From Sporomusa sphaeroides DSM 2875 (lineage in GTDB: Bacteria > Bacillota > Negativicutes > Sporomusales > Sporomusaceae): DNA of 64,000 bases. The first letter of the stretch is position 1. The number at the start of each line of letters is the position of its first letter. The position numbers and the translations under genes were made by a program. The stretch covers positions 2,342,524 through 2,406,523 of the forward strand of contig NZ_CP146991.1 in the NCBI RefSeq assembly GCF_001941975.2, in the 5' to 3' direction. This document shows, one piece after another, positions 14,720 to 30,185 of this stretch. The notes below the pieces were generated by a model. The model was not told where the DNA came from, did no database searches, and saw only the letters and a program-made list of their open reading frames with translations.

Positions 14720-14794
<75 letters not shown>

Positions 14795-14795
14795 A

Positions 14796-14848
14796 TAAAC
14801 AGCGAAGCAACATGTGTGAGTCGTTTAGTTCCAGCGTAGCGCGGAACT
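14796..14848 (-). repeat. tRNA-spacer repeat R2, short copy
   Basis: Minus strand reads GTTCCGCGCTACGCTGGAAC, then TAAACGACTCACAC and GCTTCGCTGTTTA. It matches the repeats between the tRNA-Leu genes near 29.6-30.1 kb. The second hairpin is deleted, as in the copy at 29854. It occupies the spacer between tRNA-Gly and tRNA-Cys. Confidence 0.8.
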
Positions 14849-14865
14849 TCCTCTAAATATGGAAC

Positions 14866-19363: not shown

Positions 19364-19368
19364 TTAAA

Positions 19369-29510: not shown

Positions 29511-29596
29511 TGGTGCGGTTGGTGAGACTTGAACTCACACGCCTTGTGAGCGCCACCCCCTCAAGATGGTGCGTCTGCCGATTCCGCCACAACCGC
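29511..29596 (-). tRNA. tRNA-Leu (anticodon GAG)
   Basis: Class II tRNA with acceptor GCGGTTG/CAACCGC, anticodon stem CCATC/GGTGG around loop TTGAGGG, long variable arm, T loop TTCAAGT, encoded CCA. Confidence 0.93.
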
Positions 29597-29615
29597 GTTG
29601 TTTATTGTAGATAGA

Positions 29616-29702
29616 GGATGTTCTTCGCTCCACTCAGAACTAAGCGACTCACACAGGTTCTTACTTCGCCTGATGGCTTGCAACAACCTGGTTCGCTGCT
29701 TA
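29616..29702 (+). repeat. tRNA-spacer repeat R2, full copy 1
   Basis: Hairpin 1 GTTC-...-GAAC (29620-29640), then TAAGCGACTCACA, hairpin 2 CAGGTT...AACCTG, and a closing TTCGCTGCTTA that can pair with TAAGC. It fills the gap between two tRNA-Leu genes. Confidence 0.8.
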
Positions 29703-29788
29703 TGGTGCGGTCGAGTGGATTTGAACCACCACGAGGTTGCCCCCACTAGCTCCTGAGGCTAGCGCGTCTGCCGTTCCGCCACGACCGC
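29703..29788 (-). tRNA. tRNA-Leu (anticodon CAG), copy 1
   Basis: Acceptor GCGGTCG/CGACCGC, anticodon stem CTAGC/GCTAG with loop CTCAGGA, long variable arm, encoded CCA. Identical to the gene at 29911. Confidence 0.97.
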
Positions 29789-29853
29789 ATGTTATGTTAT
29801 CCAACAACTGAAATTATACGATAAATGCTTCGGTTCGTCAAGAAATTTTTAAA

Positions 29854-29906
29854 GGATGTTCCGCGCTACCGCTTGGAACTAAGCGACTCACACAGGTTCT
29901 TGCTTA
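29854..29906 (+). repeat. tRNA-spacer repeat R2, short copy
   Basis: Hairpin 1 is GTTCC...GGAAC, a paired change relative to GTTCT...AGAAC. The second hairpin is deleted, leaving CAGGTTCT joined to TGCTTA, the same deletion type as at 14796. Confidence 0.75.
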
Positions 29907-29910
29907 TAGA

Positions 29911-29996
29911 TGGTGCGGTCGAGTGGATTTGAACCACCACGAGGTTGCCCCCACTAGCTCCTGAGGCTAGCGCGTCTGCCGTTCCGCCACGACCGC
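29911..29996 (-). tRNA. tRNA-Leu (anticodon CAG), copy 2
   Basis: Base-for-base identical to tRNA-Leu at 29703; tandem duplication with an R2 element in each spacer. Confidence 0.97.
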
Positions 29997-30014
29997 ATGT
30001 TGTGATATATATAT

Positions 30015-30102
30015 AGGATGTTCTTCGCTCCGCTCAGAACTAAGCGATTCACTCATATTCTCTCTTCGCTTTGCAGCTCGCGACAATATGGTTCTCTGCT
30101 TA
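30015..30102 (+). repeat. tRNA-spacer repeat R2, full copy 2
   Basis: Hairpin 1 GTTC...GAAC, then TAAGCGATTCACT, hairpin 2 CATATT...AATATG and closing GCTTA. The second hairpin stem has several base pairs changed on both sides compared with CAGGTT...AACCTG in full copy 1. Confidence 0.8.
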
Positions 30103-30185
30103 TCACTGTTTAACGCAACATAATATATATTATCACAACAATAAATCATCGTCAAGCTTTTCCGTCAAGAATTTTATGTCGAGCA

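Follow-up and report, generated by a model that had tools for sequence, protein, structure and literature searches.

A polar double-hairpin repeat with one-ended docking at stable-RNA genes in Sporomusa sphaeroides, probably a small mobile palindromic unit

Introduction

Small palindromic repeats of bacteria have mostly been described next to protein genes. The window analysed here, a stretch of 64,000 nucleotides from Sporomusa sphaeroides DSM 2875, contains a repeat that lies between tRNA genes and whose hairpin arms change together from copy to copy. An earlier note on this DNA had offered two readings of it, a structure used in processing tRNA precursors and a palindromic mobile unit, and we asked which of them the element fits. 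One systematic survey of stem-loop families excluded mature tRNA and rRNA sequences and then, by location, tRNA- and rRNA-related clusters (PMC2267715), so that a family docking at those edges could have escaped notice. Our literature search, with most subscription journals outside its reach, found no description of this repeat family or of docking at tRNA ends by palindromic bacterial repeats.

Results

Element architecture and copies in the window

We located the copies in the window by sequence inspection together with a covariance model (R1). The element is polar and about 70-90 bp long, with the order AAGGA, hairpin 1, TAAGC, a conserved linker, hairpin 2, another conserved linker and GCTTA(T). 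The consensus of 19 full copies from the host genome reads AAGGA-hairpin 1 (GTTCC...GGAAC)-TAAGC-GATTCACA-hairpin 2 (CAAGTT...AACTTG)-GTTCTCT-GCTTAT. Five Rfam searches at gathering thresholds left the element unmatched, and the matches elsewhere were tRNA, rRNA and two riboswitches.

The four copies named in the earlier note were recovered by sequence reading and by the model, three on the plus strand and one on the minus strand. A full copy (29614..29703, plus; 91.7 bits) lies between two tRNA-Leu genes that ARAGORN placed at 29511..29596 (gag, minus) and 29703..29788 (cag, minus), and its right end runs 1 nt into the end of the tRNA-Leu(cag) gene (gap -1). Its hairpin 1, GTTCT...AGAAC, occupies 29620..29640 (plus) by sequence and fold; from sequence and consensus fold, the outer pairing spans 29641..29702 (plus), joining TAAGC (29641-29645) to GCTTA (29698-29702), and hairpin 2 joins CAGGTT (29654-29659) to AACCTG (29685-29690) on the same strand. 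The copy at 29852..29907 (plus; 53.7 bits), which lacks the 3' arm of hairpin 2, sits between two tRNA-Leu(cag) genes with a tRNA boundary 3 nt away; one of these genes (29911..29996, minus; ARAGORN) is a near-identical duplicate of that at 29703..29788 (repeat D2, 98%). Another full copy (30014..30103, plus; 95.2 bits) lies upstream of the first tRNA-Leu(cag) in the cluster, with its left end 17 nt from the tRNA and no tRNA near its right end, and is an exception to the docking described below. The minus-strand copy (14795..14853; 44.4 bits), in the tRNA-Gly/tRNA-Cys spacer, lacks most of hairpin 2, is co-oriented with the tRNAs and ends on its right flush with the 5' end of its dock, tRNA-Cys(gca) (14720..14794, minus; ARAGORN).

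Sequence comparison confirmed that both arms change in hairpin 1 (GTTCT/AGAAC versus GTTCC/GGAAC) and in hairpin 2 (CAGGTT/AACCTG versus CATATT/AATATG). The outer TAAGC/GCTTA pairing is kept, and the copy at 14795 carries a further, compensated change in it, TAAAC/GTTTA. The copies at 29852 and 14795 do lack most of hairpin 2, as had been claimed, but the claim of the same kind of deletion in both fails, since their break points differ side by side and thus do not reflect one deletion.

Paired changes in larger sets of copies

In an alignment of the 19 full host-genome copies (A3), built with MAFFT without reference to structure, pairing holds in 98.9% of 437 cells, and both sides change in 5 of 23 pairs. 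For four of the five measures, none of 500 shuffles matched the observed value; the fifth, further pair types, was equalled by 481 of the 500 and exceeded by none. Sliding the structure by 1-3 columns left pairing at 51.5% or less. The alignment of relatives (A5; 109 copies, 95 distinct rows), whose pair counts are biased towards the model because it was fitted to the model structure, showed changes on both sides in 22 of 23 pairs and pairing in 97.0% of 2042 cells, and no shuffle equalled any of the five measures. Folding of single copies gave no more than a moderate gain over shuffles (z between -0.04 and -2.90 in the window copies, -4.92 in L018), so the case rests on covariation and not on energy.

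The earlier note had held that arms changing without compensation would count against it. Some copies do break the pairing, for example C1:1393309 (L057), where the hairpin 2 arms CATGTT/AATAGG are mismatched. The paired changes are real, in the wider sets as well as in the window; the step from them to a structure that matters is less secure, because template switching during replication is another way in which arms can be repaired (PMC8794818), and paired changes alone are no proof of function.

We then compared the two strands. On the consensus strand, wobble (G-T) cells number 10 of 1950 in the relatives and 9 of 857 in the host genome. There are 39 and 19 A-C cells, respectively, which would read as G-U from the opposite strand; all of these are cells of related copies and not independent events. 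By orientation to the nearest tRNA, the A-C:G-T ratio is 35:11 for opposite, 2:4 for same and 21:4 for neither. An argument for DNA-only pairing from the scarcity of G-T cells was weakened by this strand test, A-C cells being commoner. The G-U bias on the transcribed strand hints that this strand is read as RNA to some extent, or at selection at the RNA level.

The excess of A-C over G-T, 39 to 10 in the relatives and 19 to 9 in the host genome, and its distribution by orientation are in favour of an explanation in which selection maintains the element as a structured segment of tRNA and rRNA precursors, the stem right after the mature 3' end guiding or limiting the trimming or cutting of the spacer. 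The low wobble share argues the other way: wobbles account for 0.5 to 1.1% of paired cells when the consensus strand is read and for 2.0 to 2.2% of cells when the other strand is read, against 6.2% G-U in the stems of 154 distinct tRNAs from the examined loci, a control that counts only pairs drawn by ARAGORN and hence shows no mismatches. With the evidence on docking, distribution and empty spacers given below, we consider the precursor explanation unlikely.

Distribution in the host genome

The covariance model found 39 copies (E up to 0.01) in the host genome, which measures 5.0 Mb in two contigs. The position table covers 39 of 41 own matches and 104 of 109 matches in relatives, short local matches being omitted. 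Twenty of the 39 copies have a tRNA no more than 200 nt away, and tRNA spacers clearly hold more than their share. The other 19 have none that close, so that the earlier statement that copies occur in tRNA spacers only was not borne out; the note had also named wide occurrence away from tRNA genes as refuting evidence, and by the covariance-model search this applies to the processing reading. These 19 copies, nine of which lie beside protein genes, argue against the precursor explanation.

Among the copies away from tRNAs, one pair lies behind the 23S gene in L034 and another pair in the matching sequence of L031; single copies lie between 23S and 5S (L047) and just upstream of the 16S start, as read from sequence (L095); and four (L033, L036, L043, L048) are found with a second repeat or with sequence from its right flank. 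Three of the nine beside protein genes (L035, L038, L056) coincide with, or lie close to, the stop codons of three ORFs that resemble one another, and three others (L041, L060, L094) are upstream of ORF starts.

The second repeat is itself dispersed and hairpin-rich (L043:1331-1500 and relatives), with 7 matches in the host genome and 43 in G003. Three of the seven adjoin the element at the same point (L033, L043, L048), and a fourth copy of the element, L036, resembles these in its right flank, its left flank being shortened. We had considered a riboswitch interrupted by the element at these four loci and rejected it: a search of one of them, L043, gave no Rfam match at a permissive E-value, and the flank is the second repeat. 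At L031 1350-1588 and L034 1347-1587, a unit of about 150 nt, made up of a terminator-like hairpin and the element, is tandemly doubled, and the terminator arms of the doubled units themselves differ in a paired way. The rRNA order in this genome, 16S-5S-23S, is unusual, with 4 of 5 own-genome 5S matches between 16S and 23S (L102, L105, L108, L110). Intervening sequences in 23S (L105, L108, L110) were discarded as a candidate, the gaps in the 23S matches coinciding with N runs.

Spread across genomes

Matches at E up to 0.001 were present in 25 of 60 genomes, the host included, in several families of the class; 35 of 60 had none, a further point against a precursor element. Copy number within the genus ranges from 2 to 42. 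A scan of 398 genomes across the phylum, which undercounts because strict filters were used and 11 candidates were scored per genome, gave matches in 7; one of these, G407, belongs to another class and shows the same architecture. Of 31 pattern-search records not named Sporomusa, 18 were without model matches and 13 had them: six Bacillota assemblies from one soil study, Propionispora, Clostridium bovifaecis (two), C. homopropionicum, Acetobacterium dehalogenans, a Eubacteriaceae assembly and a Firmicutes assembly.

Clostridium copies of a compact form (L204:4613-4704, L226:1670-1741, L233:6220-6291) adjoin sequence that, by ORF reading, resembles RHS/YD-repeat proteins. The spacing of exactly 25,748 nt between three equal-scoring copies on C1 of G011 (25973, 51721 and 77469) points to a large tandem triplication or to an artefact of the assembly.

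Docking at the edges of tRNA and rRNA genes

We assembled a docking set of 47 copies with tRNAs on both sides (right gap < 30, left gap < 120, flanking tRNAs on the like strand), which reduce to 45 distinct spacers when copies that agree in tRNA pair and gaps are counted once; where a partial copy stands before the tRNA (right gaps 53-129, opposite orientation), the copy behind it is outside this set as such. The right end was at most 2 nt from the tRNA boundary in 38 of the 45 distinct spacers, with 9.4 expected, and random placement in free spacer DNA reached this number in 0 of 20000 simulations. The left end came as close in 2 of 45, and lay 8-24 nt away in 34 of 47. Orientation was opposite to the tRNA in 42 of 47 copies, which places the right end at the tRNA 3' end, and the same in five, which places it at the tRNA 5' end. 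The orientation to transcription shared by the 42 fits a precursor element, as does the position of the right end, at a tRNA end or, among relatives, at the 3' end of 23S; the five inverted copies docked at the 5' end do not. As the same end docks in either spacer orientation, the asymmetry belongs to the element and not to a need of the tRNA.

For rRNA genes we used a hand-picked table of 23 rows, with coordinates from Rfam. Among 15 opposite-orientation 23S rows from relatives, the distance to the 3' boundary given by Rfam is -3 to -1 nt in 11, 33 nt in three and 303 nt in one. Four 16S rows lie 6-14 nt from the gene and are not flush, the single 5S row is co-oriented and 1 nt from the 5S start, and in three co-oriented copies it is the left end that faces a 23S gene, at distances of 14, 126 and 200 nt behind it.

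Where the host genome has the element, the counterpart spacers in G001 and G007 (L279-L283) hold other palindromes, of the TCGAATATCGA type, and tRNA spacers look like a landing zone in general. In Acetobacterium and relatives, a 5' fragment of tRNA-Lys (..TTAGCTCAGTTGGT) is followed by the element (L213:6486-6687, L211:2845-3034, L241:5362-5453), twice each in L213 and L211 and once in L241.

Empty sites and flanks

The tRNA-Gly/tRNA-Asp spacer is empty in the window (19364..19368; 5 nt, TTAAA; sequence and ARAGORN) and filled in G006 (L162 5104-5194), where the copy is flush with tRNA-Asp and the spacer reads TTTAAAA, element, TGGCGACC. Further empty spacers were the Met-Tyr spacer in G001 and G007 and the Pro-Trp spacer in G001 versus G007. 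Among the examined loci, an empty counterpart was found for 8 of 96 distinct filled sites, on six places; such matching spacers without the element speak against a role in the precursor. Two of ten empty-like matches were set aside (L156:622 and L187:1039), one being another filled copy and the other a different inserted sequence. For the 16S spacer, a search of 60 genomes that allowed up to 2 mismatches did not find the precise empty site that had been predicted. Comparison at the second repeat showed the filled form to have other sequence in place of 13 nt of the empty form, unlike a clean insertion.

Some loci share copies with a similarity of up to 98.9% although their 60-nt flanks do not exceed the random level; the flanks of L033 and L034, for example, have a similarity of 0.57/0.57, against a random mean of 0.56 and maximum of 0.65. 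Near-identical copies in dissimilar flanks, including flanks beside protein genes, are hard to reconcile with an old spacer sequence that spread only by duplication or gene conversion among tRNA and rRNA operons and acquired its paired changes via template switching, and docking by one end only is not predicted by such a history. Several spacers are nevertheless paralogous (Val-Glu, Gly-Cys and the ~150 nt unit doubled behind 23S), template switching can mend arms (PMC8794818) and G-T intermediates are rare. We rate this history as the least probable of the explanations weighed here.

The termini AAGGA... and ...GCTTAT are not inverted repeats of each other, and no target duplication was seen by eye in the listed flanks. 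The left flank is A/T-rich and often ends in TA, with variable spacing to GGA. A conserved target motif was sought and dropped, as the left side gives only a loose (N)TA.

Neighbouring copies and possible spread through RNA

In several spacers a full copy comes first, and a second one, shortened on its 5' side, reaches up to the gene. Of 11 hand-picked neighbouring pairs, some of them related by descent, nine are 69-78% alike and two are 93-96% alike, so most are not simple recent duplications. The 5'-shortened neighbours fit a two-ended transposase badly and thus count against a mobile unit moved in that way. They are in keeping with a SINE-like spread via RNA, in which a reverse transcriptase acting in trans would start at the 3' end of the element RNA (GCUUA), prime at a stable-RNA end or a nick, and frequently stop early or jump to a second template. 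If this were true, the element would be joined end to end to mature tRNA, 23S and 5S ends, right ends would be flush at RNA 3' ends in opposite orientation or at 5' ends in the same orientation, and chains would form of a full copy and then 5'-shortened copies from another subfamily.

The precise right end, the left part often missing in the tandem neighbour beside the gene, the low identity within nine of the 11 pairs and docking at RNA ends, 3' or 5', agree with these expectations. Reverse transcriptase matches are also widespread, being present in 7 of 8 genomes tested, with 13 in the host genome. However, the remaining genome, G019, has no such match and yet holds 3 element copies; neither a linked reverse transcriptase nor a tail was seen at element copies; and the 16S copies, 6-14 nt off the gene end, are not flush. 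A pattern for the lone right-end motif gave 112 hits in four genomes, and the four of these examined as candidate isolated partial copies (L377, L379, L381, L382) gave no model match, which likewise fails to support SINE-like spread. We find it a very doubtful explanation on balance.

Search for a partner enzyme or carrier

Y1 transposase genes were present in 7 of 7 genomes tested, with 50 matches in total. In the loci around 30 of these matches, from the 7 genomes, model R1 found no element at E up to 1, and the numbers of Y1 genes and elements do not track each other: G001 has 13 Y1 matches and 2 elements, and the host genome 3 and 39. No autonomous copy was seen at the host's three Y1 matches (ORFs of 249-256 aa), which are without an element in the surrounding 3.3 kb. 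A RAYT partner was accordingly rejected, the element being absent from the 30 loci and two of the three own RAYT-type genes adjoining other palindromes. These two genes are flanked by inverted palindromes of the GGGACA...TGTCCC and GGGACGTTCCC types (L135:1081-1107 and 1909-1935; L140:1102-1126 and 1936-1960) and are likely a classical REP/RAYT system. Carriage by phage was dismissed as well, since 3 viral contigs had the pattern and 0 matched the model, and no plasmid match was found.

Discussion

A mobile unit with a docking preference

These results indicate that the element is probably a small non-autonomous mobile palindromic unit with a docking preference. Between the two readings of the earlier note, dispersal, unrelated flanks, empty spacers and occurrence in both orientations favour the mobile unit, and a secondary role in RNA processing is possible. 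As neither a transposase nor a reverse transcriptase partner was found, we can only infer how the unit moves, and IS200/IS605-like movement is the likeliest of several ways. Presence and absence of copies were compared between species.

A trans-acting enzyme would recognise the two folded hairpins as single-stranded DNA. It would respond more to structure than to stem sequence, which would leave the stems free to vary if both arms do. A precise cut might then be made at the right end, GCTTA, followed by joining where a tRNA or rRNA gene, foldable when single-stranded, offers an accessible edge, in an IS200/IS605- or REP-like mode of movement. A copy inside a transcribed spacer would fold as RNA and be tolerated, any help in precursor cutting being secondary.

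Several observations weigh against the mobile unit: the enzyme searches gave no partner and Y1 numbers do not follow element numbers, the 16S empty site was not found, 13 nt were replaced at the second repeat, and only 8 of 96 filled sites have empty counterparts among the examined loci. The G-U bias, the undocked copy at 30014 and the three co-oriented 23S copies belong here too. One-ended flush docking at the boundaries of stable-RNA genes is a sharp, testable signature of movement, and it carries a caution, namely that textbook compensatory changes in a tRNA spacer need not indicate a processing element.

Comparison with known systems

The rtT repeats of the E. coli tyrT operon touch a tRNA 3' end. 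Unlike our element, which is dispersed and has no Rfam match, they are longer and confined to one operon.

Mitochondrial double-hairpin or repetitive hairpin elements, as far as the accessible text of PMC2800124 goes, look mobile, are intergenic and show complementary substitutions and tandem forms. Our element likewise has single and double hairpins, complementary substitutions between copies and tandem forms, whereas theirs are organelle DNA with other sequences, and that text describes no docking at tRNA ends (PMC2800124). Bacterial MITEs such as RUP, Correia/NEMIS, ERIC and YPAL are described in PMC2229807 as non-autonomous, < 200 bp and hairpin-forming. The element agrees on all three points; most MITEs, however, have terminal inverted repeats with TA and target duplications, which are unseen in it.

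REPs (GTAG- or CGTC-tagged, associated with RAYT) are short, palindromic, dispersed and extragenic, with a conserved foot beside the hairpin and with termini that frequently meet the ends of genes and provide stop codons (PMC3733652). The element resembles them in these features, including a conserved foot. It differs in having two different hairpins plus an outer pairing within 70-90 bp and in docking at tRNA and rRNA edges; its conserved feet are AAGGA and TAAGC/GCTTA, with the GTAG or CGTC foot absent, and no RAYT gene was flanked by the element at 30 of 50 Y1 loci in 7 genomes.

The comparison with derivatives of IS200/IS605 differs in that neither a TnpA partner nor an autonomous copy was found in the 30 of 50 Y1 loci searched and the left target is only loosely (N)TA. 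Members of this family have asymmetric ends with subterminal hairpins and no terminal inverted repeats, and a guide sequence pairs with the cleavage site. By consensus fold and flanks, the element likewise has subterminal hairpins at both ends, without terminal inverted repeats or target duplication, and the TAAGC that precedes its right hairpin is able to pair with GCTTA at the right end in the manner of a guide with its cleavage site.
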